Positions 2,210 through 31,921 are shown, counted from the first letter of the stretch. The stretch: 34,246 bases of DNA from Bacteriovoracaceae bacterium (GCA_017858255.1 JAFMBV010000031.1:1-34246), one strand, 5' to 3'. Numbers and translations are program-made. The notes: generated by a model not told the origin, from the letters alone.

Positions 2210-2213
2210 GTTT

Positions 2214-2369
2214 CTACTTCTCGACAGAGATGATAATATACTCCCCAGCTTTTCCATGAAAGCGTAATAACCATGGATAAGACAAGTCAGAGTCGTTTCC
2301 CTCTTTAATGGAGGTTATGGTTTTTGAGTTAGTACGTTGTAAGTAAGATTTTTGAGGACCACTTTTCAT
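2214..2369 (-). CDS. Possible 51-residue protein directly after the GLUG lipoprotein gene
   Basis: An ATG-initiated frame of 51 residues (start MKSGPQKSYLQRT, end EYIIISVEK) begins 15 bases after the TAA of the GLUG lipoprotein and is in the same frame. Its composition is protein-like, mixed charged and beta-prone. There is no clear Shine-Dalgarno sequence, so it would depend on re-initiation after the upstream stop. It could be a coupled small protein, a former C-terminal extension cut off by a stop codon, or chance. It does not overlap the convergent regulator gene, which ends at 2209. Confidence 0.3.
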   Translation of the reverse strand: MKSGPQKSYLQRTNSKTITSIKEGNDSDLSYPWLLRFHGKAGEYIIISVEK

Positions 2370-2384
2370 GTGCAGATAAAATTC

Positions 2385-5300: not shown

Positions 5301-6209
5301 ACAAATGATTCGCTCACCTGCTACTGGGCTAAAAGGAGTTGCGCCTGTGCCGGCAGGAGAAGAGCAGGGGTTTTTAGAAATTCTAATTTCATTTGCTGTT
5401 AGGGAAGTTGTCGATTGAGAGTTTAGGCGAGCGGCACCTCTGTTGGCGAGTCCTGCATAAGGGTTTTCCACAACAACTCTATCTACTTGGCCCGCACATC
5501 CTGCTTGATCATAGAGGTCGATAACGATGGCAAAATTCCAAGGACCTGGGCTAAAGATAGGGGTTTTAATTTTTCTAATTGTACTATCTAGTTCCGGAGT
5601 TAAGACTGTCTGTTCATCGACACAGGCACTAATGAGACCAGGGCCAACACTTCCTGGGCCTTTACTTGGCAGGATTACTCGGTAAGAACTTGAAGTCGAG
5701 TTTTTACAAGTCCCAGCATCAAATGTATCAAAGACCCCACGTTGATCAGTACAAGTTGCAGGTAGGAGCGGTAGGGGTTCACCGTTAGCGGCCCTGGTGT
5801 CACCATTTCCAAAAAAGGGATCAGCACAACCAGCATTACTAAGAGTCAGCGCTACATTCGCTTCCCCTCCATTTAAAAGAGTTCCTCTAACAACACTACA
5901 GCGAGTGACTCCTTCCATAACATTATTAAAATCAGCATTTGTCGTGTTGTAGCCATCCCAACTAATGGCCGCAAATTCCCATCTACCATTTGGTAACTCT
6001 AGTGGAACACCATCAAAAACTTTAGAAAAGCTGACTCCAGTATCAGGATTAAAGCCAAAGAGCATCGTTCCCCCAGTTTGTCCGGGGACAATGGCCGTAA
6101 GGCCCGCTACTAGAGTTACTCGTGCTTTTGTGATATCTGCCTTTTGGCCACAGCTAAAAAGTATGCCTAAAAGTGTAAAAATTTGAAGAAGAGTTATTAA
6201 CCTATTCAT
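2385..6209 (-). CDS. Large GLUG-repeat surface lipoprotein
   Basis: This 1274-residue protein has a lipoprotein signal (ITLLQIFTLLGILFSC, Cys at about residue 20). Around residue 300 it enters a long repeat region in which glycine-rich turns of the form GG-[LIFAH]-[IVFA]-G recur at least fourteen times: GGLIG, GGIVG, GGAVG, GGLVG, GGFIG, GGIFG, GGIAG, GGHFG and others. These alternate with beta-strand residues, Asn and Ser. The pattern is typical of GLUG-type right-handed beta-helices in bacterial surface proteins. A repeat-free section near residues 810-880 splits two repeat blocks. The product is expected to be lipid-anchored and possibly surface-exposed, for adhesion or as a passive fibre; no enzymatic motif is visible. 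The start has AAGG just upstream. Ligand and export route are unknown. Confidence 0.75.
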   Translation of the reverse strand: MNRLITLLQIFTLLGILFSCGQKADITKARVTLVAGLTAIVPGQTGGTMLFGFNPDTGVSFSKVFDGVPLELPNGRWEFAAISWDGYNTTNADFNNVMEGVTRCSVVRGTLLNGGEANVALTLSNAGCADPFFGNGDTRAANGEPLPLLPATCTDQRGVFDTFDAGTCKNSTSSSYRVILPSKGPGSVGPGLISACVDEQTVLTPELDSTIRKIKTPIFSPGPWNFAIVIDLYDQAGCAGQVDRVVVENPYAGLANRGAARLNSQSTTSLTANEIRISKNPCSSPAGTGATPFSPVAGERIICTPAQFDTFIPANLNLIYELYADLDFSTRGTYPNAVVNNTFTGMLDGRGHTIRNVTINSPSNAAALFRQIDGTGTFPNNSEASIQKLKLENFNITAGNNSNGALVGNVFLGSRIWMVDAQNISFTLNGAGTTQTGGLIGCMDETDASTNGGSYTEAWGLRVKDISINVTGNHDSIGGIVGHIRTSNGLRNSIVENLTFTSSAATVSKVGGAVGQLSQTGGEIFAVTANNIQLGTSGSVLGNIPQMGGLVGLVTDGRVIDSKAVSTIYGGGNEIGGLVGGAYGVDFRNNVSLINILSAPIGTSVGGHIGLSGISTNNPTIKNSRALGSIQCATTDCGGFIGTIMNSSTFTTLIEDSYADVVTTSTTSVAGGFIGNSNNSGTGITINRCAAYGDVTGTADVGGFIGQAIANNIVEVFSQGQVSVSSGLGSGLIALLNAGSIVQSYTSSSVVGASGTKTDCISSEVATPTVTDVYHISDGASDGNCTALATASANAFTNYTNFDISGTTPWKNVSSQPPSLKSINAVQGVGESYTGSPTDPIILSTPSQWNSIGDKPSLMDKTFRLGNIIDFSPNPSNFVPIGSNTNPFTGEFQPNNQGVSNINFIDNTNSEPLGLFRVIGTAAGKGSGRIEQRDYFDYDKDFAFYIDNVSLVKNTSILGHTGIVAGKVFDDGTNQGNGVHDYQYAVAFAEIYITNSNVYGGGATYSVGGAFGNVTLTNEQSDFYDIYVIDTTIDGSATTDDGIGGIFGSLTGSLVSNTGNIRMDNFIARNVYVGNATVSEVGGIAGNVNHTQLEFEFFRANGDITGLSQVGGHFGTAANAQFINGSFDGTVTAAGTSAGGIAGDINTTLIKNVISRAIVLASGAAGAAGCLNGTITAASSIENSIGNCPSVTAPLGTSSYFTNSALNTSTVNSIYTQPIDADEGLSTNFVNFVTQADFVNPSATSAILTAGDPWVLEPGLPPLPIWEAFPEFFE

Positions 6210-6379
6210 ACACCTTAATTATCGGTCAAATTGTCCTTAAAGATTAGAATAGGCTTAATTCATGGCATTTTAAGAACTTAGAAATTGTGTAAAAAAGGTG
6301 ACAACTCTAAATTGCCCACTCTTTAAGGAAAAGCACCTCTAAATACTCGATTTTAATAGTAAAGGTTATATGGGCTATT

Positions 6380-6400
6380 TTCCTTTAGTTTGCTAAGGAA
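6380..6400 (-). other. Hairpin after the S1 protease gene
   Basis: Arms TTCCTTTAG (6380-6388) and CTAAGGAA (6393-6400) can pair around the loop TTTG with one bulged base. It lies just beyond the stop of the minus-strand protease gene at 6416 and may mark its transcript end. No T-tract follows on either strand, so it is not a standard Rho-independent terminator. The remaining bases between 6210 and 6415 show nothing else clear. Confidence 0.3.
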
Positions 6401-6415
6401 CTATTCTCTTTGAGA

Positions 6416-7276
6416 TTACAAATACTGACTAAGCCACTTTGAATAGGCTTGAATATTCGTAAATCCCGCAAGTCCTTTGCATAGGACTGTTCCACCAACA
6501 GCGTAAGAAGTAATTCCGACAAGCTTAGCTCTTCGGTCCTTCTCGTAATAGACAAGAGGGCCACCACTATCACCGATACAGTTTCCAGTTTCGGCAACAA
6601 CCCCTGTAGTTAAAAGGACATTAGAGCGGTTTAGTTGGATAAAGTTTAATAACTCATCGTCCATATTAAATTCTCTTATCATTTGCTCGCGAAAACCTTC
6701 ATCTTGTAAATCTGTTTTTGTTACCCCAACTGCTCTTACATCAACTTCCATTAGGTCTTTGGAGTAGATAGGGAAATTACTAGGCGCCTCTTTTGAACCC
6801 CAGCCAGTGGAAGCAAAACGGCCTGCCATATTTCTGAAGTCACTCTCAATGATCACGTTGTCCTCAAGAGAGGGAATATCAATAACACCAAGATAATCAT
6901 TTAATTGAACATCACGTTTTAAAATAATCACAGCGATATCATGAGCGACAATTTTATCGGGATCAAATTCAGGGTGCATATGAATGGACTTAATTCTCGG
7001 CAACCTTTTTAAACGATCAACTTCCCCGGTAGAGGACATGCCTTTAAGACGTAATGTACTTGGACTAAAGCTTTTTACACAGTGAGCCGCCGTTAGCACG
7101 ACATTCTTTCGCACCAAGCTAGCACCACACAAATGGCCACTAAATCTAACTTGAAGAGAGAGTTGCCAGGGATGTTCTAGATTAGAAGTCTTTGTACCGC
7201 CTATAACCTTATTTACGGCAAATAAGTTTAAGGGGAAAAGGGCCACCAGAGAAAAAAGCAAAATAAATTTGTTCAT
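6416..7276 (-). CDS. Secreted trypsin-family (S1) serine protease
   Basis: The 286-residue protein has a signal peptide (cleavage near FA20/V21) and a chymotrypsin-fold protease domain starting at the IGG of residues 25-27. The triad is complete: His65 in LTAAHC, Asp113 in HDIAVI, Ser237 in GDSGGP. Cys50-Cys66 and Cys233-Cys266 match the two conserved disulfides. The position equivalent to chymotrypsin 189 appears to be Gly231 rather than Asp, so a preference for small or hydrophobic side chains is more likely than trypsin-like cleavage after Lys/Arg (inference). A short propeptide after the signal suggests activation by cleavage. GGGAGA lies six bases before the ATG. It is encoded among other exported proteins and hydrolases, fitting a digestive role in a predatory bacterium. 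Confidence 0.88.
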   Translation of the reverse strand: MNKFILLFSLVALFPLNLFAVNKVIGGTKTSNLEHPWQLSLQVRFSGHLCGASLVRKNVVLTAAHCVKSFSPSTLRLKGMSSTGEVDRLKRLPRIKSIHMHPEFDPDKIVAHDIAVIILKRDVQLNDYLGVIDIPSLEDNVIIESDFRNMAGRFASTGWGSKEAPSNFPIYSKDLMEVDVRAVGVTKTDLQDEGFREQMIREFNMDDELLNFIQLNRSNVLLTTGVVAETGNCIGDSGGPLVYYEKDRRAKLVGITSYAVGGTVLCKGLAGFTNIQAYSKWLSQYL

Positions 7277-10338: not shown

Positions 10339-13300
10339 ATGAAAAAATTTGGTTTTCTTATTTCCTCACTAACTCTTATTTCTGCTTTTCTCATTTGGGA
10401 TCAATTTTATTATTGGTCAGGGCCTCTGGAGTTTCTTAAAGACGACTTCACTCTCTACTCTACAGTAGCCATCTTTGTGTTTGTGGCGATTCTTAACCTC
10501 CTTACCTGGAAATACCCTCAGCGGTTTTCCCCCTTATGGTCACAAATTGGAAGAAATATCAAAAATAAAAACTTCTTTATCACTGCGATCTTGGCCGGAG
10601 GGCTTGGTGCTCTACAGTTTTTTAATCCCTACCTGCTTCCACCGATTGTCTCCTCAGTTATAGGAACAATTCTCTGCCTTCTTATTATTCATACTCTCTT
10701 TACAGAAACTGGCCCTTACAAAGGATTTGTTGGTGAATTTAACTATCAAAAGCCAAACTGGGCCATAAGAGCCTTTAAAAAAGGGGGATTGAAATCTTTC
10801 TTAACGAATTTAAATAAGAAATTCTTGGTAGGTCTCGTTTTAATCGCCATTTTAACAGCAGGTATTTTCAATTTTTACAATAATAGACCGCAGCCTAAAG
10901 AGCCGGAGAAACTAAGTTTTAGTTTTTATGAACCAGGTCCAACGAGGCTAAGTAAGAGTAGTAACGGAGAGGTAAAGGAGCGAATCGCTGAACTCCAGAT
11001 CCGCTTTGATAAATCAGTTGCTCCTATTGAACTGGTAGGGAAGTCCTTTAGTGAAGATACTCCTCGTCTCTTTCCGGAAATTAAAGGAACCTGGAAGTGG
11101 ATAAGTGATCAGTTACTTTCATTCACTCCGTCTGAAAAATGGATATTAGGAGAGAAGTACCACTTCCAGCTCTCAAACCTCAAGCTTCCCAAGAGATATA
11201 CAAAAGCAAAAACGGAAGATGAATTTACCATAAAAGAACTCAAGATTAATGTTGATAATAAAGAGTTCTATGAGGACCCAAGGGACCCTAAAATAAATAA
11301 AGCAATTTTCACTTTAAGCTTCAATTATCCCGTTGACCAAAAAAATCTCCAAGAATCGATTGTCCTTAAAAAAATCGAGTACGCAAAATCATCAAAAGAG
11401 GGTGACCTCCTTGTGGATGCCGCCAAAGTTCAGGCCGAGAGTCCAGTAAAGTTTAAAGTTATTTTTGATGACCTAGGCTACAAAGCTCATATCCACACTG
11501 AGTCTCTCTCAATCCCTAAACACAGTGCTCGCGTAAACCTAAAGCTCCTGCCTGGAATTAAGTCGACTTTCAAAGGGACTAGCACTGACTATCAGGTGGA
11601 CTCTTATGTTGATCTGCCAGGTATGTTTGATTACTTTAATATTGAAGACGCTGATCTTAAAATTGTTGAAAATGAGAAAGCTGTACCAGAGCACGTTGGA
11701 GTTCTTCAATTCTCTGCAGGAGTTTACCCTTCTTCTCTAAAAGGAAAGATACGTCTCTATGAGCTTCCAAAAGTGATGAAAGTAGAGGGAAGAAAAATAA
11801 GACACTGGTCTGAGCACACGGCCTCTGCCCTTGGAATGAGTAGAAGTGAACTCATCGAAAGAAAACCAGTTTTCCTTGAAAACTCTCAAGAATTTCCAAA
11901 ACTACACTCTTTTATGTTTGAACTAAAGCCTTCTACTTACTACATCCTCTCTATTGAAAAAGGTATTAAGTCTGCCTCAGGCTTTGTTCTCGCTGATACC
12001 TTCGAAAAAGTAATTTATGCTAGCCCTTTCCCAAAGAAACTTAAACTTATGCACGACGGTAATATTCTAAGTTTATCTGGAGAGAAGAAACTTAATATCT
12101 ACAGTACGAATGTTCGAGAAATTGAAGTGGAAATTGGCCAACTTCTTGGTGATCAAGTTCAACATATCCTTACTCAAACCAATGGAGATTATGCGAATCC
12201 ACGCTTTCGAAATGAGTATCAATTCAGTAAAGAAAATCTCGCCCATTTCGAACGAACAAAAATCAAAGTTTTGCATGCAAGTGATAAGAAACCCAGTTAT
12301 TCCGTTCTAAATTTTTCAAAATACCTCAGACGAAAAATTCAAGGAAAAAAAACGCAGGGTATATTCTTTGTTAAAGTAAAAGATACAAGAAATAGGGGAT
12401 TAACCGATCAACGACTTATTGTTGTAAGTGACCTCGGCGTTGTTATGAAAATGGATGTCTCAGGAGATCATCACTTCTTTGTTCAGTCTCTTAGTTCAGG
12501 CAAACCCGTTGCCAATGCTCTCATCCAAATTGTCGGAAATAACGGATTATCAATGTCCTCAACAATGACTGACTCAAGAGGCTATGGTGAAGTCCCTAAT
12601 CTTGAAAAGGATATTTCACGTCCTCGTTACGCTAGAGGCATTCTTATTAAGAAAGGTGAAGACCTGGCATACCTTAAGTATAAAGACTTCAACACCAATC
12701 TCGACAACTCGCGCTTTATGGTTGGAGGTATCAGTAACTCTAGGGCCAAGGATTCATTAAGGGGCTATCTTTTCAGTGACAGAGGGATCTATCGTCCAGG
12801 TGAGGAAGTTCGTGTTGGTATTATTGTAAAAGGCGGCCAATGGGACAAGAGCCTACTCGGCATCCCAGTGGACATTGTTGTTACTAACTCTCAAGGCAAA
12901 TCCATAGTTAAAAAGGAGAGGGTTCTCACAAGGAAAGGCTTAGATGACCTGATCTTTAATCTGCGAAGGGGAGCTCCAACAGGTTCCTATACAGCAAAAG
13001 TTTTTAACTTCTATGGGAATAACCGTAAGCACAACAGAACACTTATTGGTAGTGTAGATTTTAAGGTAGAAGAGTTTCTTCCTGATCGCTTGAAAATTTC
13101 AAGTATCTTTAACAAGACGAAATCTTCAGGCTGGATTTCTCCGGAAGACCTTAAAGCGGAGGTTAACCTCCAGAACTTATTTGGATTTCCCGCTAGCGGC
13201 AATGAAGTAAGAGCAAAGTATAAGATAACACCAGTCTCTCTCTTCTTTTCAAAGTATAGAGACTTTAGATTTGATAACCCAACAAAGTCATTTTCAAGCT

Positions 13301-16300
13301 ACTCAGAGGATTTAAATAACTCTCAAACAGATGATAGTGGTAACACAGCATTTAATCTACCTCTTGAAAAATTTGCTAAGAAAGTCTTTCGCTTAAGCTT
13401 CTTTGCAGAGGGCTTTGAAAAAGGTAGTGGTCGTTCTGTTACGGCTAAAACATCAGCTCTTGTTTCTCCCTATAACTATCTTATTGGTCTTAAAAGTATT
13501 GATGATTATTCCTACATTAAGAGAGAGGATAAGCGTACGGTTGAATTTATTGCCATTGATTCCGACCTGAACCCAATCTCCCCAAAGGGACTCACCATTC
13601 GGTTTATTGAGAAAAAGTACGTTAATGTTTTAACTAAGAGACCAAACGGTAGCTTTGGATATGAATCTCAGCTAAAAAAAGACGTTCTTTATAAGAAGCC
13701 TTTCATTATTGAAAAAGTGGCTAAAAAAATGGTCCTTGATACCTCTAATGCTGGTGACTTTATTGTTCAAGTAAGGGACGACAAGGAGAACCTCTTCTCC
13801 TCTTTTGAGTACACCGTTATCGGTGCCAGAGACCTGTCTCGTTCTCTATCAAGAAACGCTGAACTCAAAATAAAACTGAATAAAAAGGACTACGCACAGG
13901 GAGATACTATCGAATTGGAGATTAGGTCCGCCTATGTTGGCCGGGGCCTGATAACCATTGAAAGAGACAAGGTTTACGACTTTGTATGGTTCAATCAAAA
14001 TCAAAAGACGACAACTCAACGTATTGTCATTCCCTCTAATTTAGAAGGAAACGCTTATCTGAATGTCACTCTTCTGCGGAGTAAAGATAGTGATCAAATC
14101 TACACCCTTCCATTAAGCCACGGAGTTGAACCCTTCACTATTAGTAAAGACTCAAGAAGAGAGGAGATAGATCTCTCAGTGAAGGAACTCTATAAACCTG
14201 GCCAAAGAGTGGATGTAAAATATTCGACCTCTTCAAATAGTGACGTGATCCTCTATGCTGTTAATGAAGGTATACTCCAATTTGCCAATTATAAAAAACC
14301 AAACCCCCTAGACTATTACTTTCGTAAAAAATCTCTAGAGGTCAATACTTATCAAATTCTTGATCGTCTCTTACCTGAGTATGGAAGAGCCGTCAGGAAC
14401 CTCGCTCCTGGTGGTGGGTACGGTGCTTTATCAGAACAGCTCAATCCTTTTAACAGAAAATTGAAGAAACCAGTTGCCTACTGGTCAGGTCCATTAAAAG
14501 CGGGACCAGCGAAAAAGACTTGGAGTTTCAGGGTGCCCGAACATTTCAATGGCTCCCTTAAGTTCTTTGCTGTGGCCGTAGGCAAGCAGACCCTTGGTTC
14601 ACAAAGCGAAGCTGCAAAAGTTCGTGCAGACATGATCTTAACACCGAATGTTCTTACCTTTGCTGCTCCTGGAGATCAATTTGATATTCCTGTTGGAGTC
14701 TTTAATAATATCGAGAATAAAGAGAAAGCGCACGATATCACCTTAAAACTTAGCCACTCACCGAGCTTAAGCTTGATCGTCCCCAGTCAAAAGATGATTA
14801 AGATCAACGTGCCCGCTCGCAAAGATAAAACTCAGTCATACTCCCTTAAGGCGCTCACAAACCTTGGTAATGCCAACCTTACATTTACGGCCAATAGCTC
14901 TGCTCTCGAAAATGCCATTACTGAAACAATGAGCATTAGGCCAGCCACTGCCTACTCTACAGACTTTAAAATGGGTGTAATGGAAGACTCTAAGTTAGAG
15001 ATTCCAATCAAGAGAAAGATTTATTCTCAATACGCTCAAGGGAAAATCGTTCTTGGTCTAAGCCCACTTGCTCTTTCAGAGTTCCTGATCAGTTACCTCG
15101 ATAAGAACCCTTATGGCTGTTCAGAGCAGCTAGTCAGTAAGGCCTTTCCTCATCTCCTAAGCAGCCTAGATGACAAAAAATTTAAAGGAGAAGCACAGAT
15201 TTATATTGAAAAAACCATACAAGCTTTAAGGTCACGACAAAATGATGATGGGAGTATCAAACTCTATCCCTCTAATATAGGCCACTCTATCTTTGCAACC
15301 CTTTATACGCTTCATTTTCTTATTGAAGCCGATGAAAGAGGCTTAAAAATTGATCAACGTTTCAAAAAACGTGTTGCTGGTTTCTTGAAAGGAAGCTTAA
15401 AGAACCTGAAAGATAGTTATCTATTGGGCTATGCAATTTACCTACTGACAAGAACTGAAGTTATCACTACCGCTTATCTAAGTGATATCAATCCCATAGT
15501 AGAGGATATTGTCGCCAAGATTGAAAATAAGGAAACTTTAAGTAAAGGTGATAGTCTTACTCTTCTTCATGTTGCTTCTTCTTATAAGCTTTTGATGAAT
15601 GAGAAAAAAGCCCGTGAACTTTTAAGGAACTTTCGTCTTGATCTTAAAACGGAAAACTACATAGACTCGTATTACAATCCTATCGTTAAGCAAATGCGTC
15701 TTGTTGGTTTACTGGCCAAGCACTTTCCCAAGAGGGCAGCGACCATAGATCCTAAAAAGCTAATGGTTCTCTTCAAAGCTCAGAAACGCCACTTCAACAC
15801 CCTAAGTTCTTCTTATACTCTTCTTGGTCTCGAAGACCTTAGAAGCTTTATGAATCGAGGTTTAAGTAAGAATCTCGTGGTAAAACAAGCTTTTGTTGAC
15901 GATAAGGGCAAGTTCCGCTTTGAAACTATTAAGGGCAGTAAAGGAAAGTATAAATTTTCTTCAAGTGCATCAAAAATAGTCGTTGAGAGTTCAGACTCTA
16001 CAACTCTTTTTTGGAGTTTCTATCACTCAGGCTTTTCTCTTCCAGGCTCTGAACTAAAAAGTAGAGGCATTGAAGTTTTTAAGGAAATTCTAGATAAGGA
16101 CGGCAAGGCCATTTCAAATGTTGGTCAAGGTGATATCGTTACTGTCAAAATCAAGTTTAGAACGACCAATGACAAAAGCCTTCGCAATACAGCGATCGTT
16201 GATCTCTTACCTGCAGGCTTTGAGAATATTCTTGATAGAGAAAAAGACATGTCTCCTCAAGGAGCTCTTGGTTATACTAGTGACTTTATTAATGTGAGAG

Positions 16301-16473
16301 AAGATAGAATCATTAGCTACGGCAAAATCTCAAAAACTATGCAAGAGTTCTCTTACAAAATAAAGGCCGTCAATACTGGAACATTTCAAGTTCCAGGGAC
16401 CTTAGTGGAGGATCTCTACGACCAAGAGCATATCGCTCTAGGAAAAAGCTCTACGATTATTGTTGTAAAATAA
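10339..16473 (+). CDS. Bacterial alpha-2-macroglobulin with N-terminal membrane domain
   Basis: This 2044-residue protein is the bacterial counterpart of the macroglobulin protease trap. When an attacking protease cuts the bait region, a reactive thioester links it covalently. The thioester motif CSEQ is present at residues 1594-1597 in NPYGCSEQLVSKAF, so the protein should be trap-competent. A typical macroglobulin-domain signature SDRGIYRPGEEV lies near residue 815. The alpha-helical thioester domain follows the Cys (about 1590-1860), then a C-terminal receptor-binding-like beta domain. Residues 1-185 form about five membrane helices (about 4-20, 40-57, 79-95, 100-121, 162-180) instead of the lipoprotein signal found in E. 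coli YfhM, so the trap is held in the inner membrane facing the periplasm. pbpC follows with no gap. The pairing fits emergency repair: the trap stops proteases that enter a damaged envelope while PBP1C patches peptidoglycan. Confidence 0.9.
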   Translation: MKKFGFLISSLTLISAFLIWDQFYYWSGPLEFLKDDFTLYSTVAIFVFVAILNLLTWKYPQRFSPLWSQIGRNIKNKNFFITAILAGGLGALQFFNPYLLPPIVSSVIGTILCLLIIHTLFTETGPYKGFVGEFNYQKPNWAIRAFKKGGLKSFLTNLNKKFLVGLVLIAILTAGIFNFYNNRPQPKEPEKLSFSFYEPGPTRLSKSSNGEVKERIAELQIRFDKSVAPIELVGKSFSEDTPRLFPEIKGTWKWISDQLLSFTPSEKWILGEKYHFQLSNLKLPKRYTKAKTEDEFTIKELKINVDNKEFYEDPRDPKINKAIFTLSFNYPVDQKNLQESIVLKKIEYAKSSKEGDLLVDAAKVQAESPVKFKVIFDDLGYKAHIHTESLSIPKHSARVNLKLLPGIKSTFKGTSTDYQVDSYVDLPGMFDYFNIEDADLKIVENEKAVPEHVGVLQFSAGVYPSSLKGKIRLYELPKVMKVEGRKIRHWSEHTASALGMSRSELIERKPVFLENSQEFPKLHSFMFELKPSTYYILSIEKGIKSASGFVLADTFEKVIYASPFPKKLKLMHDGNILSLSGEKKLNIYSTNVREIEVEIGQLLGDQVQHILTQTNGDYANPRFRNEYQFSKENLAHFERTKIKVLHASDKKPSYSVLNFSKYLRRKIQGKKTQGIFFVKVKDTRNRGLTDQRLIVVSDLGVVMKMDVSGDHHFFVQSLSSGKPVANALIQIVGNNGLSMSSTMTDSRGYGEVPNLEKDISRPRYARGILIKKGEDLAYLKYKDFNTNLDNSRFMVGGISNSRAKDSLRGYLFSDRGIYRPGEEVRVGIIVKGGQWDKSLLGIPVDIVVTNSQGKSIVKKERVLTRKGLDDLIFNLRRGAPTGSYTAKVFNFYGNNRKHNRTLIGSVDFKVEEFLPDRLKISSIFNKTKSSGWISPEDLKAEVNLQNLFGFPASGNEVRAKYKITPVSLFFSKYRDFRFDNPTKSFSSYSEDLNNSQTDDSGNTAFNLPLEKFAKKVFRLSFFAEGFEKGSGRSVTAKTSALVSPYNYLIGLKSIDDYSYIKREDKRTVEFIAIDSDLNPISPKGLTIRFIEKKYVNVLTKRPNGSFGYESQLKKDVLYKKPFIIEKVAKKMVLDTSNAGDFIVQVRDDKENLFSSFEYTVIGARDLSRSLSRNAELKIKLNKKDYAQGDTIELEIRSAYVGRGLITIERDKVYDFVWFNQNQKTTTQRIVIPSNLEGNAYLNVTLLRSKDSDQIYTLPLSHGVEPFTISKDSRREEIDLSVKELYKPGQRVDVKYSTSSNSDVILYAVNEGILQFANYKKPNPLDYYFRKKSLEVNTYQILDRLLPEYGRAVRNLAPGGGYGALSEQLNPFNRKLKKPVAYWSGPLKAGPAKKTWSFRVPEHFNGSLKFFAVAVGKQTLGSQSEAAKVRADMILTPNVLTFAAPGDQFDIPVGVFNNIENKEKAHDITLKLSHSPSLSLIVPSQKMIKINVPARKDKTQSYSLKALTNLGNANLTFTANSSALENAITETMSIRPATAYSTDFKMGVMEDSKLEIPIKRKIYSQYAQGKIVLGLSPLALSEFLISYLDKNPYGCSEQLVSKAFPHLLSSLDDKKFKGEAQIYIEKTIQALRSRQNDDGSIKLYPSNIGHSIFATLYTLHFLIEADERGLKIDQRFKKRVAGFLKGSLKNLKDSYLLGYAIYLLTRTEVITTAYLSDINPIVEDIVAKIENKETLSKGDSLTLLHVASSYKLLMNEKKARELLRNFRLDLKTENYIDSYYNPIVKQMRLVGLLAKHFPKRAATIDPKKLMVLFKAQKRHFNTLSSSYTLLGLEDLRSFMNRGLSKNLVVKQAFVDDKGKFRFETIKGSKGKYKFSSSASKIVVESSDSTTLFWSFYHSGFSLPGSELKSRGIEVFKEILDKDGKAISNVGQGDIVTVKIKFRTTNDKSLRNTAIVDLLPAGFENILDREKDMSPQGALGYTSDFINVREDRIISYGKISKTMQEFSYKIKAVNTGTFQVPGTLVEDLYDQEHIALGKSSTIIVVK

Positions 16474-18774
16474 GTGAGTAAACTTTTTATAAGCCTATTC
16501 ACTTTGTTCTTACTGTTACCGGCCTGTGATTTTTCCGCAGGCCCACTATCACTTGAATATTCTCAATCTCGTCAGGTTTTTGATAGTACTGGTAAACTTC
16601 TTCGCTTAACTCTAAGTGACGATGACCAATATCGATTATGGGTATCTACTAATAAGACACCTAATCAACTTAAGGAAGCATTCTTGTTTAAAGAGGATCG
16701 CTATTTCTATTGGCATCCGGGATTTAATCCTATCAGTCTTTTTCGCTCGTTCTTCCAACTTCTCTACCAAGCTAAGCCCGATGCAGGAGCTTCAACAATT
16801 ACAATGCAACTCGCGAGGCTTCACTATAAGATTCATACACGCTCAGTTTTAGGAAAGATCAAGCAAATCGCGGCTGCCTACTGGATTGAAATTCTCTATA
16901 CAAAAGATGAAATTCTAGAAGGCTATTTAAATCTCGCGCCATTTGGACGTAACATTCAAGGTGTGAAAGCTGCGAGTCGTATTTATTTCAGAAAATCTTT
17001 AAAGCAATTAAGCCTACTTGAAATATTCTTTCTTAGTTCAATCCCTCAGAGACCCTCTATTCTTAACAGTGTTCAAGTCTTGGCACCTCTACCTGAAAGC
17101 ATTAAGGAGTCGAGTTCCAAGCTCTACCGTGCCTATTCTCAAAAGGAGAAAATAGAAGTTCTTGATGACCTTCTGAAACTTCCCTATATGATTCACGGTG
17201 TGAAAAGCATTGCTTTTGAAGCACCTCATTTTAGTGATCAAATTTTAAGGCGAACAACTGAAGCAGATATCTATGGCTCCATAGACCTTTCTCAACAAAA
17301 AATTTTGGCAAAAACTCTTTATGATTATATTGAAAAGAGGAAGAAAGAAGGTATTCAAAATGCTTCACTTGTTTTGATTAATTACAAAACAATGAAAATC
17401 AAAGCAATGCTTGGTTCAAAAGATTTTTTTAATAATAAGATATTTGGCCAAGTTAATGGTGTTATTTCTCAACGAAGTCCCGGCTCCACTCTAAAACCAC
17501 TTATTTATGCCATGGCGATGGAACAGGGAGTTATTATTCCGGAGTCAATTGTCTTTGATGCTCCCTTAAGCTTCAGAACACCTGAAAACTATGATCAGGT
17601 CTTTAGAGGCCCCATGAGTGCAAAAAATGCTCTCATTACTAGCCGTAATGTACCTGCTGTTTATCTCGCTAGCCTTCTTTCAAAGCCAAACCTCTTTGAA
17701 TTCTTAGGTCGTCTCTATCCTGGAAAGTTCTCTGAAACAAATAACTACGGTTCTTCTCTGGCCCTTGGAGGGGCCGAGTTCTCTCTCCTAGAATTGACTA
17801 AGCTATATGCTATGTTTGCTAATAAAGGTCAGTTTAAAAATATAAGCTGGTTGAAGGATGAAGCTGTAGGGGTTGGACCTCTCCTTCTAAAGCCTGAAGC
17901 TATAGCTATGATGATGGAGGTCTTGAGTCACAATCAAAGACCTGGTCTCCACTATGATAAGAACTATGTCTTGAAAGGTGCAGACGTCTATTGGAAGACT
18001 GGTACAAGTTTTGGCTTTAGGGATGCTTGGAGTGTCGGTATTGTGGGTCCCTATATCTTAGGAGTTTGGGTTGGCAATTTTTCTGGCCTTGGTAATTCAA
18101 GCTTGATTGGCGCAACAGCCGCAGCTCCGCTCTTCTTTGAGGCCATAGATAAGCTTGAAATACCAATTCACTATGATGATCTTCACGCCATTCACGAAAA
18201 TATAACTGAAGTTGAAGTTTGTGCAGTTTCAGGCTTTTTGCCTCAGAAATTCTGTCCCCATAAGAAACTAAGCCTATTCTATCCTGGAATATCTCCTATT
18301 AAGAAGTGTGCAGTTCATCGAAGAATCGAAATTAATATGAAGTCAGGCTTACGTGCCTGCACGGAGACTGTCGAGAAGACACGAAAGAGTATCGTTGAGG
18401 TTTGGCCCAGCCACATAATGGAAATATTCAACAAACTTGGAATTCCACGAAAACCACTGCCTCCCTTTGGACTGGAGTGCAATAGGCAAGGGCTTAAGTC
18501 TATTGGCGCTGCTCCTATAATTTTAAAACCGCATAGAGGTCTTAAATACACTTTTAGAAAGTCTGAAAAACAACATCTTATTGTCTTTAAGGCACAGGCC
18601 GATAATTCTGCAGTCAAGCTACACTGGTACGTAGATAATTCCTTTCTAGGTAGCTTTAAAGGGAAGCAAGAAGTTTACTGGAAAGCAAGGCCTGGCAAAT
18701 TCAAAGTAAGAGTAGTCGATGATTTAGGACGGCAAGCAAATAGAAGTTTAACTGTTCTGTATCTAGATAATTAA
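16474..18774 (+). CDS. pbpC: Penicillin-binding protein 1C (peptidoglycan glycosyltransferase)
   Basis: The 766-residue protein starts at GTG directly after the TAA of the macroglobulin gene, so translation is probably coupled. The N-terminus has a lipobox-like LLLPAC (Cys18), unusual for PBP1C, which is normally anchored by a membrane helix. The glycosyltransferase 51 domain (about 55-235) includes FKEDRYFYWHPG with catalytic Glu74 and GASTITMQLAR. The transpeptidase-like domain has the three expected motifs: STLK with Ser338, SRN at 390-392, and KTG at 508-510. A cysteine-containing linker (about 580-625) and a C-terminal beta-sandwich of the BiPBP_C type (about 675-766) complete the PBP1C layout. 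It polymerises glycan strands from lipid II in the periplasm; in E. coli PBP1C the transpeptidase activity is weak. Confidence 0.93.
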   Translation: MSKLFISLFTLFLLLPACDFSAGPLSLEYSQSRQVFDSTGKLLRLTLSDDDQYRLWVSTNKTPNQLKEAFLFKEDRYFYWHPGFNPISLFRSFFQLLYQAKPDAGASTITMQLARLHYKIHTRSVLGKIKQIAAAYWIEILYTKDEILEGYLNLAPFGRNIQGVKAASRIYFRKSLKQLSLLEIFFLSSIPQRPSILNSVQVLAPLPESIKESSSKLYRAYSQKEKIEVLDDLLKLPYMIHGVKSIAFEAPHFSDQILRRTTEADIYGSIDLSQQKILAKTLYDYIEKRKKEGIQNASLVLINYKTMKIKAMLGSKDFFNNKIFGQVNGVISQRSPGSTLKPLIYAMAMEQGVIIPESIVFDAPLSFRTPENYDQVFRGPMSAKNALITSRNVPAVYLASLLSKPNLFEFLGRLYPGKFSETNNYGSSLALGGAEFSLLELTKLYAMFANKGQFKNISWLKDEAVGVGPLLLKPEAIAMMMEVLSHNQRPGLHYDKNYVLKGADVYWKTGTSFGFRDAWSVGIVGPYILGVWVGNFSGLGNSSLIGATAAAPLFFEAIDKLEIPIHYDDLHAIHENITEVEVCAVSGFLPQKFCPHKKLSLFYPGISPIKKCAVHRRIEINMKSGLRACTETVEKTRKSIVEVWPSHIMEIFNKLGIPRKPLPPFGLECNRQGLKSIGAAPIILKPHRGLKYTFRKSEKQHLIVFKAQADNSAVKLHWYVDNSFLGSFKGKQEVYWKARPGKFKVRVVDDLGRQANRSLTVLYLDN

Positions 18775-20955: not shown

Positions 20956-22110
20956 ATGAGAATTTTAAACCTGCTTACCTTGCTAGCTACTCTTACTCTT
21001 CTAAGCTCTTGTTTAACCAGAGAAGACTCCTCCGTTGTAGAAGGTTTTGAAGTACAGGTTTCAAATTATGTAGTTGGTAGTCGAGATAATAGGGAATTAT
21101 TAACTGAAAGTTCAGTTGATCAATCAACAGTGGCCATAGTTAATGAAAATAATAATCTAGTCTGTACGGGAACGGCCATTGGCAGCTACTTTGTTTTAAC
21201 AGCAGCTCACTGCCTTTACGATAAAGAAAAGAATCAAATTAGGCGTGACTTGAGTGTTATTCCATATATTCATATGGCAGATAATTATAAACCTCATACT
21301 AGGTTTTTGATTAAAAATTTGTATGTTCCTAAGTCTTACATAAATCAAAGTAAGGGAACGGTTGAATCAATTGAGAGAGATATCGGAGTCATTAAGGTAA
21401 GAAGCTTTCAAGATGCCCCATTGTTTAAATCTGTCGTAAAAATTAGAGAAGTAGGAACAAAGGAAGACATTTTAAATAATAATAACCAACTAACGATGGT
21501 GTCTTACACGGGTGAGGATTCCAAAGAGGAGTTGTCCCAATATATTCAAGAAAATTGTTATTATCATGGTGCAGTGAAAAGAAACTCAGGCGCTTTTAAA
21601 CATGACTGCGATACTATGCCTGGAACGTCAGGATCGGGAATGATCGTAGGGAACAAGGTCGTTGGTGTTAACACAAGCCATAGTAAGGATTCTGATTACA
21701 ATTTTGGTGCAGTTATTAAGAACTCTGACTATGAAGAGATTAACTTCATCATTAATAGGCAACCTGAATTATTAAAAGATTTTAAAGACTTTGACGTTAA
21801 AGTTACACCTTATATTGGGTTGGAAGTAAGAAATCAATGTCCTTATGATATCCAATTTGCGATTCAGTATGTTGATACTAATGGTGAAAAGCAGACTAAG
21901 GGTTATTATACAATCACTCCAAATACACTGAAGCTTTTAAATTTCAAAATGAGTAATCACAAACCCCTTCTTCATGCCGTTTCTGTAGATGGTAAGAATG
22001 AATGGAAGGGGAATAAAAATGTTTTCTTTTATGATCAAAATCGTCCATTTATGGAAGTTTCACTTCGACAAGCTTATGAAGATGGCCTTATTACTTTTGA
22101 TTGTCGTTAA
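20956..22110 (+). CDS. S1-family serine protease lipoprotein with DUF1036-like tail
   Basis: The 384-residue protein has a lipoprotein signal (TLLSSC, Cys19). The protease domain (about 50-270) has the triad His85 (LTAAHC), Asp142 (ERDIGVIKV) and Ser225 (PGTSGSGM). GTSGSG in place of GDSGGP is more like the glutamyl-endopeptidase (V8-type) branch of the family than trypsin. Residues about 285-384 form a separate domain: GLEVRNQCPYDIQFAIQYVD followed by KGYYTITPNT resembles the DUF1036 pattern (a conserved Asn-Cys start, an AI-Y strand, then a G-W/Y-x-x-I-x-P turn). This domain probably binds something outside the cell. It is expected to be membrane-anchored and active in the periplasm or at the surface. 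Its stop codon abuts the stop of the convergent operon. Confidence 0.8.
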   Translation: MRILNLLTLLATLTLLSSCLTREDSSVVEGFEVQVSNYVVGSRDNRELLTESSVDQSTVAIVNENNNLVCTGTAIGSYFVLTAAHCLYDKEKNQIRRDLSVIPYIHMADNYKPHTRFLIKNLYVPKSYINQSKGTVESIERDIGVIKVRSFQDAPLFKSVVKIREVGTKEDILNNNNQLTMVSYTGEDSKEELSQYIQENCYYHGAVKRNSGAFKHDCDTMPGTSGSGMIVGNKVVGVNTSHSKDSDYNFGAVIKNSDYEEINFIINRQPELLKDFKDFDVKVTPYIGLEVRNQCPYDIQFAIQYVDTNGEKQTKGYYTITPNTLKLLNFKMSNHKPLLHAVSVDGKNEWKGNKNVFFYDQNRPFMEVSLRQAYEDGLITFDCR

Positions 22111-22386
22111 TTAAATTTTAAGAAATTCTCGAAGCTTGCGCCAAAATGATTTCCTTGGGAAGAGCCTCTTATAATGTTTTTCCCCTTTAGCGTTTTTTCT
22201 CATTTGTATGAGCTTCTTCTTAGAGAGGTTAGTCAGAATATTTTCAAGGACTTCTTTATTTAATTCGGGATTTTCTTTAAGAAATTCTTCTTCGAAATCC
22301 ATTACTATCCGTTCCCAATTCATTTCTTCATAAAATGAGAGAACTTCTAATACAGAATCTTGAAAGTTGTTGTTTTTATCCACCAT
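22111..22386 (-). CDS. Small winged-helix-like protein, last gene of the ApbE operon
   Basis: The 91-residue protein has no signal peptide. It is helical and charged: WERIVMDFEEEFLKENPELN, then KEVLENILTNLSKKKLIQMR, then a basic segment KGEKHYKRLFPRK. The order of helix, helix, recognition-like helix and basic turn resembles a small winged-helix domain. The final RKSFWRKLREFLKI is a basic amphipathic helix that could touch membrane or nucleic acid. It begins nine bases after the ApbE stop, so it is very probably co-transcribed. It could be a regulator of the operon or an accessory factor. I recognise no family. Confidence 0.6.
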   Translation of the reverse strand: MVDKNNNFQDSVLEVLSFYEEMNWERIVMDFEEEFLKENPELNKEVLENILTNLSKKKLIQMRKNAKGEKHYKRLFPRKSFWRKLREFLKI

Positions 22387-22395
22387 GTCTCTAAT

Positions 22396-23331
22396 TTACT
22401 TCTTAAAGCTATTAAGTGCCCTGTTACTTAAATGACTTTTACCGCTATCATCAATAAGGATACCATAAATATCTTCTTTGTTTAGAAGGGCGAGAGCGTC
22501 AGATGTACTGAGGGCCATAGCAATGGTGCCCCATACATCTGTTTCTAAACAAGTATCTCCGATAATAGTACTAGAAACAACTGGGCTTGAGTTTTGTTCA
22601 TTATTCTTCGTCAGGATATGGTGGCTGGCATCTAACTTGTTAAACTGAATATAAGAGCCTGATGTTGAGACGCTTCCATTTTGAACTTGGACGAGCCCTG
22701 CTGCTTGGTTAGGGTCTTTGGCAAATGGATTTCGTATTCCAACCTTCCAAGGCCTTGGAGCATCTGGTTCTGATTGAACTCTCATATCTCCAGAACCATT
22801 CACTGAGAAATTTATCATGCCTTTATTTCTTAAAAATTTAAAAGCACAGTCAACAGCATAACCCTTACCAATTCCCCCAAGACCAATCCTCATCTCAGTG
22901 TAGGGTAGAAAGACTGTCATTTCTTTAGAGTTAATTTCCACTTTTTTAAAATCTACAAGGGAGCGTAGAGTTTCTTTTTCTACAGGAGTAAGAGGTTTGT
23001 CTGATTTTAAAGACTCTCTCCACTTTGCATTGTAACTTGCATAGGTAAGGTCAAAAACACCTTGAGACCTTTCAAAGAAATTAGCAGACTTGCTTAAGAG
23101 AAAGAGCATCTCTTCATCGATTGGGCACGGCCTAATACCTGCAAGTTCATTTATTTTATTAAGGTCACTTTCTTTGAATTCTGTGAATTTATTTTCAATT
23201 CTTAAAACTTCTTGGTGAGCTTCCTTAAATAAGGCAGTGACTTCTTCAAAACGGTAGAGATTTTGGGGGTAGGCCTTATAAATGAACTGTCCACCCATTG
23301 CTGGGAAATTGGATTCACAAAGAGTGGACAT
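22396..23331 (-). CDS. apbE: ApbE-family FAD:protein FMN transferase, apparently cytoplasmic
   Basis: The 311-residue protein has the ApbE fold signatures in order: AMGGQFIY (11-18), VFDLTYASYNAKW (92-104), LGGIGKGYAVD (151-161), NGSGDM (178-183), STSGSY (222-227), HHIL (237-240) and ETDVWGT (263-269). Asp265 matches the Mg-binding acidic residue of the family. ApbE enzymes move FMN from FAD to a Thr or Ser of a target protein. Two things are odd. There is no signal peptide, and an in-frame stop (TGA) just upstream rules out a longer start, whereas family members are usually exported. Also, the DPRTG-like stretch normally after the HH is replaced by TKNNEQNSS. AAAGGA precedes the ATG. It lies 18 bases after the thioredoxin gene. 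Confidence 0.85.
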   Translation of the reverse strand: MSTLCESNFPAMGGQFIYKAYPQNLYRFEEVTALFKEAHQEVLRIENKFTEFKESDLNKINELAGIRPCPIDEEMLFLLSKSANFFERSQGVFDLTYASYNAKWRESLKSDKPLTPVEKETLRSLVDFKKVEINSKEMTVFLPYTEMRIGLGGIGKGYAVDCAFKFLRNKGMINFSVNGSGDMRVQSEPDAPRPWKVGIRNPFAKDPNQAAGLVQVQNGSVSTSGSYIQFNKLDASHHILTKNNEQNSSPVVSSTIIGDTCLETDVWGTIAMALSTSDALALLNKEDIYGILIDDSGKSHLSNRALNSFKK

Positions 23332-23349
23332 GGTTTCCTTTAGGCTTCA

Positions 23350-23781
23350 TTAAAGAGAAGTTGGAGGGATATCTTTTTGATAAATGATTTTACCCGACTC
23401 ATCTATAACTAATGTTTGCGGTAGGTTTAAAATACCCAATCCTTTAGAAAAGGATTTATCCTTATCCATTAGAACCTTATAAGTAAATCCATGTTTCTTT
23501 AAGAACTTTTTAATCTTTCTTGGTGAATCTCCTGCACTAACTGCTACAAACTCTACTTTGGGGTGGTCTTTCTTTAGTTTTTCCAAAATGGGTATTTCTT
23601 GGATACAGCTTGTGCACCATGTGGCCCAAAAGTTAATGACGAGCTTCTTCTTTTCTTTCATTGGGTACTTAAAGGACTTTTCTTCCTTATAAATTGGAAG
23701 GGAGAAACTCTTAAGATCTTTTGCCCCTTTTGCCCAAAGAGTAGGCGAAAGTAGGAGAGAAAAAATTAAAATAACTTTCAT
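23350..23781 (-). CDS. Periplasmic TlpA/ResA-like thioredoxin
   Basis: The 143-residue protein has a cleavable signal peptide (to about WA17). The thioredoxin fold contains the active site WCTSC (Cys56 and Cys59) after KKLVINFWAT, and the cis-proline loop LPQTLVID near residue 120. Proteins of this group act as membrane-side or periplasmic disulfide reductants that keep the cysteines of partner proteins reduced, for instance before metal or heme insertion. The natural candidate partner here is the DUF4266 lipoprotein with its C-G-C tail, encoded two genes upstream in the same operon. It is separated from the neighbouring genes by only 8 and 18 bases. Confidence 0.88.
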   Translation of the reverse strand: MKVILIFSLLLSPTLWAKGAKDLKSFSLPIYKEEKSFKYPMKEKKKLVINFWATWCTSCIQEIPILEKLKKDHPKVEFVAVSAGDSPRKIKKFLKKHGFTYKVLMDKDKSFSKGLGILNLPQTLVIDESGKIIYQKDIPPTSL

Positions 23782-23789
23782 AAAAACCT

Positions 23790-24968
23790 CTAAAATTTAA
23801 AGCCAAAGCCTGTCTGATAATAACCATAGCGCATACCATTTGTCCTAGTGCTGTAAACTAAGCTATGACTCCACGTTACGTCTTCCAACTCTACGCCAAA
23901 ACATTTAAAGTCGGCTCTCGTGGATTCATAGAAAATACCACTTTCGTAGGATTCATATCCTGCCATATCAGAGTCACTTGTCATAAAGGTCTCGGCCGAA
24001 GCAAAGCGCCCTTTGTAGTATTTAGTTTCATTTTGCTTATGGATGCGAGCAAATACTTCCATAAAGCTTTCATCTTCTTCAATGTCAAAAAGGTAAGCCC
24101 CTCTTATAGTATGAGCATTTATATCCCACTGGTCCCAGTAGTAACGATAGCTGAGGTTAAGTGCACTAAGCTTACTTAAACCGTGAACCCATTTACTTGA
24201 GAGAGCATAACGACTTCTTGTCTCTGGTAAGACCTCCACTTGGCGAACGCCAGCAACACTTACAGTATTTGCCGTTGATTCCAAGTAACCATTTGAGCGA
24301 GCAAAGGTAGCATCAAATTGAATGATATCTTTTACTGTTAAGATCTGGCTTGCTGTTATGGAAGTGGCCATAATCTTACGACTTAGTCCGGTCGTTATGT
24401 TAGCAGCACTAGGATTAGAGATATCCTTAAAGAGACTTACTTCGTCGTTATAATACTGAAAAGAGGCGCCGAGTGTGAAGTTGTCATTGGCAAAAGATCT
24501 TGAAGCACTAAGCGTGCCATTTAAAGATTTATAGTCATATTCACTAGAGAAGCCGATATCAAAACCATAGTTCCAGACATTCTTTCCAGCCTTCTTTTCT
24601 TGGCGCGCTCCAAGGTTAGCGGAGATTCTATTTTGACCCATAATAGGTGTTCCACTAGCTCCCGTATAATTGTCTAGTTTTGTATCACTGGCCGCAGTCC
24701 ATGCATCAAAGACAATCTTGCCATTGATGGCCGTGTCTTCGTTGATTTGGTGTTCGATAAAAACCATTGGCTCTATAACGTTGGTTTCTTCTCGCCCTGA
24801 ATTATCGGCAACCTGATTACCGTCATTACTATTTTGGTGATAGAGGTTAAAAACAGTTTTAAGTTTTGTTCTTCCTTTCGCCATCATCTCAGCAAAAGTA
24901 TTCTGTAACGCCAAGGTAAAGAGAAGGATGGTGTGAAGAACCTTTATCGTTTTTTTAGTTACACCCAC
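23790..24968 (-). CDS. DUF3570 outer-membrane beta-barrel protein
   Basis: The 392-residue protein starts at GTG inside the last codons of the DUF4266 gene (14-base overlap, different frame). A signal peptide ends near FA26. The mature part is a chain of alternating amphipathic strands ending in YGYYQTGFGFKF, with terminal Phe, as in outer-membrane barrels. It matches DUF3570 in length, the N-terminal basic strand KGRTKLKTVFNLYHQ and its gene neighbours. Near the start, residues 99-105 read D-N-Y-T-G-A-S, which fits the ApbE flavinylation motif D-x-x-[ST]-G-A-[ST] with Ser105 as acceptor. In a barrel this would place FMN on a strand or loop. Whether the motif is used is not known. Confidence 0.8.
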   Translation of the reverse strand: MGVTKKTIKVLHTILLFTLALQNTFAEMMAKGRTKLKTVFNLYHQNSNDGNQVADNSGREETNVIEPMVFIEHQINEDTAINGKIVFDAWTAASDTKLDNYTGASGTPIMGQNRISANLGARQEKKAGKNVWNYGFDIGFSSEYDYKSLNGTLSASRSFANDNFTLGASFQYYNDEVSLFKDISNPSAANITTGLSRKIMATSITASQILTVKDIIQFDATFARSNGYLESTANTVSVAGVRQVEVLPETRSRYALSSKWVHGLSKLSALNLSYRYYWDQWDINAHTIRGAYLFDIEEDESFMEVFARIHKQNETKYYKGRFASAETFMTSDSDMAGYESYESGIFYESTRADFKCFGVELEDVTWSHSLVYSTRTNGMRYGYYQTGFGFKF

Positions 24969-25167
24969 AACCGCCTCCTACCGCTGAAGAGCCGCCAATG
25001 GCACTCTCTCTAAATGAGCGCACCTCATTTCTAAAGGCCGATTCTTCTGGATGGGGATCTAGTTGCATAATTTTTTTAGCAAGAATACCTCGGTCAATTT
25101 GATCGACATTGGCACAGCCGCTAACTAACGACATTAAAAAGATAAAAGTGAGGCTTTTTATCGGCAT
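24955..25167 (-). CDS. DUF4266 lipoprotein with GGGCGCN tail
   Basis: The 70-residue protein has a lipoprotein signal (LMSLVSGC, Cys18), a short helical part (RGILAKKIMQLDPHPEES) and a Gly/Ser-rich end finishing in AVGGGCGCN. Mature length is about 53 residues. The strongly conserved-looking C-G-C-N terminus suggests a metal site, a disulfide or a modified peptide end. This layout matches DUF4266, small lipoproteins encoded beside DUF3570 barrels. AAGGA lies seven bases before the ATG. It is the first gene of the operon and its last codons overlap the start of the barrel gene, so the two are translationally coupled and probably made in a fixed ratio. Confidence 0.8.
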   Translation of the reverse strand: MPIKSLTFIFLMSLVSGCANVDQIDRGILAKKIMQLDPHPEESAFRNEVRSFRESAIGGSSAVGGGCGCN

Positions 25168-30770: not shown

Positions 30771-31193
30771 TTAAATAAGCTCTATAATTTGGCCATGGAT
30801 TGATTCAGCATCATTGTCCGCAGCAAAAAGAGTTGCAAAATTTTGTTGAAGAACTTTTCTATCAGCAGTGTCAGCACCAATTAGCTTTAAGTAAGCTTGA
30901 AGAGTTTCACCTTGACCACGAGCAATGTCGTTAGCAAGTTTTTCTCTGTTGTTTTGGATAAAAACAGGACCAGATACTTTTGCCTGTTGAGCATCTTCAC
31001 AACCCAAAGTTCCTGTAGACATTGCAAATGTTTGCATACCAGTTCCGTTAACAGTTGCAGCTAGTACATTAAAAACAAGCCCTTCTTTTCCTGCAAAAAG
31101 GTAAGATCCAAGACCACATCCTGCAGGCCCGTGAGCTGCAAAAGTGTTTCCTACAAAAAGTGTCATTGCGATAATCATTACTAATTTTTTCAT
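30771..31193 (-). CDS. DUF3015 family exported protein
   Basis: The 140-residue protein has a signal peptide (MKKLVMIIAMTLFVGNTFA) and then the DUF3015 hallmark AAHGPAGCGLGSYLF, the NGTGMQTFAMSTGTLGC segment and two conserved cysteines (26 and 65), probably a disulfide. GAGGAGG precedes the ATG, one of the strongest ribosome-binding sites in the window. Together with the strong terminator this suggests an abundant, independently transcribed periplasmic or outer-membrane protein. Its biochemical role is not known. Confidence 0.85.
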   Translation of the reverse strand: MKKLVMIIAMTLFVGNTFAAHGPAGCGLGSYLFAGKEGLVFNVLAATVNGTGMQTFAMSTGTLGCEDAQQAKVSGPVFIQNNREKLANDIARGQGETLQAYLKLIGADTADRKVLQQNFATLFAADNDAESIHGQIIELI

Positions 31194-31519: not shown

Positions 31520-31921
31520 ATGAAACTAGAAACCTTTCTGTGGACAGATGATTTAAGCATAGGTGTTACAGCAATGGATGATCAGCATAAGATCCTCATT
31601 GATAAAATCAATACACTAATTGATGATCTAAACTCTGATGGGCCGAATGCCTATAGCGATTATAAAGAACTGGCCCGGTTTGTTATTGAACATTTTGAAG
31701 ACGAGGAGAACTTTATGGAAAGCATCAACTTTCCTGGTCTACCTATTCATAGAAATATCCATAAGCAACTATTAGAGAAAGTGGGTGAGTTTGATGACGA
31801 TATTCGCGATGGTGTAGTAGATAAGGTGAAGCTTGTTTCTTTTTTAAAGATGTGGCTTAAATCACATATTATGGGAATAGATATGAAATATGGGGCCCAT
31901 GCTAAAACAAATGCCGCCTAA
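31520..31921 (+). CDS. Bacteriohemerythrin
   Basis: The 133-residue single-domain protein carries all seven di-iron ligands of the family: His23 (MDDQHK), His58 and Glu62 (HFEDEE), His77 and His81 (HRNIHK), His116 and Asp121 (HIMGIDMKY). The opening WTDDLSIGVTAMDDQH is typical. It reversibly binds oxygen in the cytoplasm, for oxygen delivery, sensing or protection under low oxygen. It has no fused signalling domain. AGGAGG lies five bases before the ATG. A zinc-finger-like protein and a Nudix hydrolase are encoded directly downstream. Confidence 0.95.
   Translation: MKLETFLWTDDLSIGVTAMDDQHKILIDKINTLIDDLNSDGPNAYSDYKELARFVIEHFEDEENFMESINFPGLPIHRNIHKQLLEKVGEFDDDIRDGVVDKVKLVSFLKMWLKSHIMGIDMKYGAHAKTNAA

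Follow-up and report, generated by a model that had tools for sequence, protein, structure and literature searches.

A DUF4266-DUF3570-thioredoxin-ApbE operon of a Bacteriovoracaceae bacterium as a candidate outer-membrane thiol-flavin electron relay without haem

Gene clusters combining ApbE, DUF3570, a thioredoxin-like protein and DUF4266 were described by Meheust et al. in 2021, who reported 285 clusters with DsbD, 221 of them with DUF4266, as well as 316 clusters without DsbD, and counted the transporter VIT1 in 25 clusters (PMC8238504). In the same study, the DUF3570 protein of Chlorobium luteolum was found experimentally to receive covalent FMN from its ApbE at two serines, and flavinylation was abolished only by replacing both; the CXC end of DUF4266 was also noted, and redox cycling was suggested for it (PMC8238504). 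A text search of that paper returned nothing on DUF3570 as a beta-barrel and nothing on an ApbE lacking a signal peptide, and the passages checked in two later ApbE papers contain no treatment of DUF3570.

We analyzed a stretch of 34,246 nucleotides from a Bacteriovoracaceae bacterium (GCA_017858255.1, JAFMBV010000031.1:1-34246), hereafter the window, which holds five ORFs on the minus strand at 22111-25167. The locus is a member of this known but unexplained flavinylation system: an ApbE with its catalytic residues, DUF3570, DUF4266 with a C-terminal CXC and a thioredoxin-like protein are all present. The initial annotation knew of no established function for such a gene set, which holds true for its physiology, but the system and its flavinylation had already been published in 2021 (PMC8238504). 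The window shares with the published system the association of the four families, a DUF3570 with two FMN-acceptor sites, predicted ones in the window, and the CXC end of DUF4266, and clusters without DsbD were counted there too. In contrast, DsbD is unlinked in the window's genome, the published thioredoxin belongs to PF13899 while that of the window is of the Redoxin/AhpC-TSA type, and the tested acceptor motif is [S/T]GA[S/T] while site 1 of the window reads TAAS. The features of the locus are the following.

24955..25167, minus strand: DUF4266 lipoprotein of 70 aa (PF14086, 1.2e-16), with lipobox LVSGC and Cys18
24958..24969, minus strand: CGCN C-terminus of DUF4266 (Cys67, Cys69), invariant in the loci found via DUF3570
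24974..24979, minus strand: AGGAGG within glycine codons of the DUF4266 tail, 5 nt upstream of the DUF3570 GTG start
23790..24968, minus strand: DUF3570, predicted barrel, 392-aa precursor (PF12094, 1.8e-27), signal peptide at about residues 1-26
24636..24698, minus strand: predicted extracellular loop 2 of DUF3570 (precursor 91-111; AlphaFold2 model), with both putative flavin-acceptor motifs
24687..24698, minus strand: TAAS, site 1 of DUF3570, Ser94 (mature Ser68), Ser in 52/52 sequences
24654..24665, minus strand: TGAS, site 2 of DUF3570, Ser105 (mature Ser79), Ser in 51/52 sequences
23350..23781, minus strand: TlpA/ResA-like thioredoxin of 143 aa with signal peptide (Redoxin 1.3e-21 / AhpC-TSA)
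23605..23616, minus strand: CTSC active site of the thioredoxin (Cys56, Cys59), within WCTSC
22396..23331, minus strand: ApbE flavin transferase of 311 aa without signal peptide (PF02424, 5.3e-50)
22111..22386, minus strand: winged-helix-like gene of 91 aa, a neighbour judged to lie outside the system

The genes are transcribed in the order DUF4266, DUF3570, TlpA, ApbE and the 91-aa gene. DUF4266 and DUF3570 overlap by 14 bases, and the gaps that follow are of 8 (to TlpA), 18 (to ApbE) and 9 bases (to the 91-aa gene), so that the tight packing first read from the sequence, with gaps of 8-18 bases and one overlap, is confirmed by the ORF coordinates. The GTG start codon of DUF3570 sits within the 3′ end of DUF4266, and the AGGAGG formed by the DUF4266 glycine codons precedes it by 5 bases, which makes translational coupling of the pair probable. 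The 14-nt overlap is retained in 24 of 26 Bdellovibrionota loci.

We surveyed 129 genomes of the order Bacteriovoracales, with loci found via DUF3570, which is encoded in 31 of them. DUF4266 was found in 30 of these 31 genomes vs 1 of the 98 others (Fisher p about 5e-27), and the sole DUF4266 genome outside the DUF3570 set carries the start of a DUF3570 at a contig end. In the fetched neighbourhoods of the order, the four core genes lie side by side in every contig of sufficient length, in one of two orders, TlpA-ApbE or ApbE-TlpA. A scan for DUF4266 in named genomes recovered 66 loci, from Bdellovibrionota, Gammaproteobacteria, Bacteroidota and other groups, with DUF3570 adjoining DUF4266 in each. 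The conserved grouping of DUF3570, DUF4266, TlpA and ApbE that the initial annotation mentioned is supported. Plasmid carriage was seen in a single distant Hymenobacter plasmid only. The proposal of a five-gene unit stands for these four genes and fails for the 91-aa gene: its homologues occur in 50 of the 129 genomes, many without DUF3570, and it is linked to the operon only in the window's genome and its closest relative (G031), so we rejected it as a system member and regard it as a neighbour. The 91-aa protein has no Pfam match above the cut-off, the best being TFIIE_alpha, a winged helix, at 0.0095.

We lean, if only slightly, toward the view that the four genes encode an outer-membrane electron relay built on thiols and flavins and free of haem, leading from DsbD through TlpA, the CGC end of DUF4266 and surface FMN to an outside acceptor. 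While the DUF3570 precursor is still in the cytosol, ApbE would attach FMN to its Ser94 and Ser105, and after export DUF3570 would insert as a 16-strand barrel with the two FMNs in or at its extracellular mouth. An inner-membrane DsbD encoded elsewhere in the genome would reduce TlpA, and from TlpA electrons would move to the lipoprotein DUF4266, whose C-terminal Cys-Gly-Cys arm would pass them to the barrel FMNs and from there to an outside acceptor, which may be ferric iron, oxygen, quinones or soluble flavins. For DUF3570 itself we suggest, more tentatively, a role as a haem-free conduit through or at the outer membrane, with two covalent FMNs that a dedicated leaderless ApbE would load in the cytosol ahead of export and that the lipoprotein's CGC arm would charge from the periplasmic thiol pool, thiols thereby reducing something outside the cell.

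The AlphaFold2 model of mature DUF3570 is a 16-strand barrel (pLDDT 90.2, pTM 0.85), and the protein combines, all by prediction, a hydrophobic N-terminus, 16 strands and a C-terminal Phe. Foldseek matches of the model are the outer-membrane channels OpdK, FadL, OmpG and PelB, with TM-scores up to 0.54, which place the model in the general class of outer-membrane barrels and single out no specific relative; sequence searches likewise gave no specific structural homologue. The model and these matches support the barrel that had been surmised from the sequence. The turns on the termini side of the model are all short, and the long loops all lie on the opposite side, which in outer-membrane proteins is usually the extracellular one; loop 2 (precursor 91-111), which holds both serines, is therefore predicted to be extracellular. 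The model of a gammaproteobacterial DUF3570 of 22% identity displays the same 16 strands and the same short termini-side turns, with the FMN sites again in loop 2 on the far side. Conserved residues, loop 2 excluded, also lie nearer the extracellular end (mean height 0.82 vs 0.57, p about 3e-4).

In a cross-phylum alignment of 52 DUF3570 sequences only a dozen positions are invariant, among them Ser94 (52/52), and Ser105 is kept in all but one (51/52). The window's protein thus has one exact [S/T]GA[S/T] motif (TGAS, site 2) and one relaxed motif (TAAS, site 1), the latter aligning with the canonical TGAS of two other loci (L171 and L172); that TAAS differs from the tested motif counts against the relay. 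With both acceptor serines conserved in the window and the C. luteolum homologue flavinylated in experiment (PMC8238504), the suggestion that the barrel carries FMN is supported, Ser94 and Ser105 being the predicted acceptor sites. Loop 2 has a pLDDT below 50, a further point against the relay, and the flavins may for this reason either face outside or fold into the lumen.

Regarding regulation and surroundings, we found no shared motif upstream of DUF4266, where the window's own stretch was read by eye, no Rfam match in the window, including no FMN riboswitch, and promoter and terminator scans that did not rise above chance. Among the largest neighbour clusters of the order there is no conserved redox gene beyond the core four, and none of the operon's neighbours in the window points to an electron acceptor, which again counts against the relay. 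The same machine could instead serve metal uptake, with surface FMNs reducing Fe(III) or releasing chelated iron, Fe(II) moving through the barrel, and linked transporters dealing with it. The iron/manganese transporter VIT1 indeed lies directly after the operon in one Bacteriovoracales genome (L039, gap 16) and downstream of it in ten Chryseobacterium-type loci, besides the 25 published clusters (PMC8238504). However, it is present in only 1 of 30 loci of the order, and no iron gene was seen adjoining the operon in the window. VIT1 proteins, moreover, often carry iron out of the cytosol, and we consider this explanation rather unlikely.

The nearest solved relatives of the window's thioredoxin are ResA and related thioredoxins; WCxxC is present in every thioredoxin of the order survey, and a thioredoxin of another type occupies the same slot in Bacteroidota. 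DUF4266 ends in VGGGCGCN in 29 of 29 proteins of the order, where loci were found via DUF3570 and the count is not circular, whereas its invariance in the cross-phylum scan is partly circular because the tail pattern was one seed of that scan. The glycine and cysteine codons of the tail vary synonymously, which shows selection on the protein. With this codon variation, and with no such overlap in most Bacteroidota, we rejected the idea that GGGCGCN is kept only through the overlap with the next start. PDB armadillo matches of DUF4266 were disregarded, as no matched stretch passes on its own. As the cysteine partner of TlpA, the initial annotation had considered both the barrel and the lipoprotein; DUF3570 has no conserved cysteine, and 36 of the 52 sequences have none at all, making the barrel unlikely and leaving the CGC end of DUF4266 as the most likely partner. 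DsbD is not linked to the operon in the window, although a complete one is encoded elsewhere in the genome; it was found in 73 of 73 good-quality genomes of the order, and in another family of the same phylum (L171) it directly precedes a Trx-DUF4266-DUF3570-ApbE run.

A mobile CGC arm on DUF4266 would be plausible by analogy with yeast Erv2, in which a C-terminal CXC pair is an electron shuttle (PMC4019985, PMC3509050). Two observations on this arm count against the relay: in Erv enzymes the electrons of the shuttle go to a cysteine pair next to the flavin, a pair that is absent from the DUF3570 barrel, and the lipoprotein tail, coming from the periplasm, would need some way of getting to the extracellular mouth. 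Erv2 combines a CXC tail with a flavin (PMC4019985, PMC3509050), and this layout speaks for a reverse reading, in which the FMNs would take electrons from the CGC tail and from the thioredoxin and give them to oxygen or another oxidant, in an Erv-type analogue that makes disulfides. We find such a thiol oxidase quite improbable, given that the thioredoxin most resembles the ResA/TlpA/DsbE kind, which is usually reducing, and that DsbD, an electron donor, lies within the L171 gene run. Copper maturation pathways employ a short Cys motif on a lipoprotein together with a thioredoxin, and the invariant motif of DUF4266 beside a thioredoxin recalls them, in line with an earlier idea that the CGC tail binds a metal and TlpA merely keeps the tail reduced. 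Mature DUF4266, however, has two Cys only and no invariant His or other Cys to serve as ligands, and a metal-binding tail would leave ApbE and FMN unexplained; this is a weaker choice and, in our estimation, very unlikely. A redox role for the CXC motif had already been proposed (PMC8238504).

For flavin loading, the relay calls on an ApbE that acts in the cytosol. In the operon ApbE the conserved AMGG motif stands at the very N-terminus and an in-frame stop immediately precedes the ATG, which leaves no room for a signal peptide; GGIGKGY, His238, Asp265 and Thr269 are conserved across the order. By a hydropathy measure, as opposed to a trained predictor, a hydrophobic N-terminus was found in 0/31 ApbE, 31/31 thioredoxin, 29/29 DUF4266 and 27/29 DUF3570 proteins of the order. 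The linked ApbEs of Bacteroidota, with one exception (Pontibacter), are also leaderless and cluster with the order's own (support 94), and a second ApbE of the window's genome, which has a lipoprotein signal and lies inside an apparent NQR operon (L141), falls outside this clade. Loading before export is likely in the window's lineage, and it would fit extracellular acceptor sites, which a periplasmic enzyme could not reach after insertion. Cytosolic loading is not universal: in each of the 15 genomes where no ApbE is linked, mostly Gammaproteobacteria, one is encoded elsewhere and is mostly exported, and some other Bdellovibrionota have an exported ApbE nearby (L179); such exported enzymes count against the relay. 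Among the genomes of one genus (g4), three carry the operon and have its ApbE as their only one, while the other 11 have none above the cut-off, so that this enzyme hardly serves another target. That the target of ApbE is a different protein and the barrel a plain channel, as a leaderless enzyme beside an exported barrel might suggest, is hardly credible given the flavinylated DUF3570 homologue (PMC8238504), the two conserved acceptor serines and the operon genomes in which this ApbE is the only one. The cytosolic ApbE of Klebsiella pneumoniae is likewise without a signal peptide, but its acceptor is a soluble fumarate reductase and not an exported barrel (reviewed in PMC12052999).

The proposed relay resembles several known systems in part. 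With Erv2-type thiol oxidases it would share a flexible C-terminal CXC pair exchanging electrons in a flavin enzyme; these, however, are soluble FAD enzymes of the ER that have a cysteine pair next to the flavin and work in the opposite direction, and we claim no sequence relation. ApbE-attached FMN is known from Na+-NQR, and the proposed system would share it with the NQR of the same genome (L141), which differs from the window's operon in its inner-membrane acceptors and its exported lipoprotein ApbE. Outer-membrane electron routes known so far run mostly via multihaem cytochromes, as in the cytochrome-porin conduits of the MtrCAB type, which take electrons across the outer membrane. Barrel-based electron passage would be the role in common, but the DUF3570 system has no haem, a smaller barrel, and its cofactors on the barrel itself.

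Beyond the published description (PMC8238504), our analysis adds a predicted barrel topology with both serines in one extracellular loop and an operon ApbE without a signal peptide, which make a widespread gene set of "function unknown" directly testable. If surface covalent flavins are fed by the DsbD/thioredoxin thiol pool, they would provide an electron route that spares iron in several phyla, relatives of predatory bacteria among them.

The gene that neighbours the operon encodes a 91-aa winged-helix-like protein that has no Pfam family above the cut-off and has homologues in 50 of the 129 Bacteriovoracales genomes; it is a separate family. Its stop codon abuts that of a gene for a trypsin-like protease. 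These and other genes of the window are as follows:

10339-18774, two back-to-back genes (2044 aa and 766 aa)
20956-22110, trypsin-like protease that carries a lipoprotein-type signal and has DUF1036 as its C-terminal domain
22111-22386, minus strand, 91-aa winged-helix-like protein
30771-31193, DUF3015 protein
31520-31921, hemerythrin-domain protein

Judging by size and N-termini, the back-to-back pair possibly encodes an alpha-2-macroglobulin-like protein and penicillin-binding protein 1C. Elsewhere in the same genome, a lipoprotein ApbE is encoded within an apparent Na+-NQR operon (L141, contig G000:C55), in which ApbE was assigned by profile and the remaining genes from their sequence starts alone. 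Features at this and two other loci are:

L141, 6551-13455, apparent Na+-NQR operon
L039 (Bacteriovoracales genome G052), 6002-6688, VIT1 iron/manganese transporter gene, downstream of the operon
L106 (Gammaproteobacteria), 1607-4546, large protein with a hydrazine-synthase-alpha-like domain

In the clusters at L106 and other gammaproteobacterial loci, extra genes upstream of TlpA-DUF4266-DUF3570 encode this large protein and SH3 or outer-membrane-barrel proteins. In L039, 16 bases separate ApbE from VIT1. The Bacteroidota loci L119, L123, L124, L128-L131, L135, L139 and L140 also have VIT1 downstream of the operon, no more than about 1.4 kb from DUF3570.
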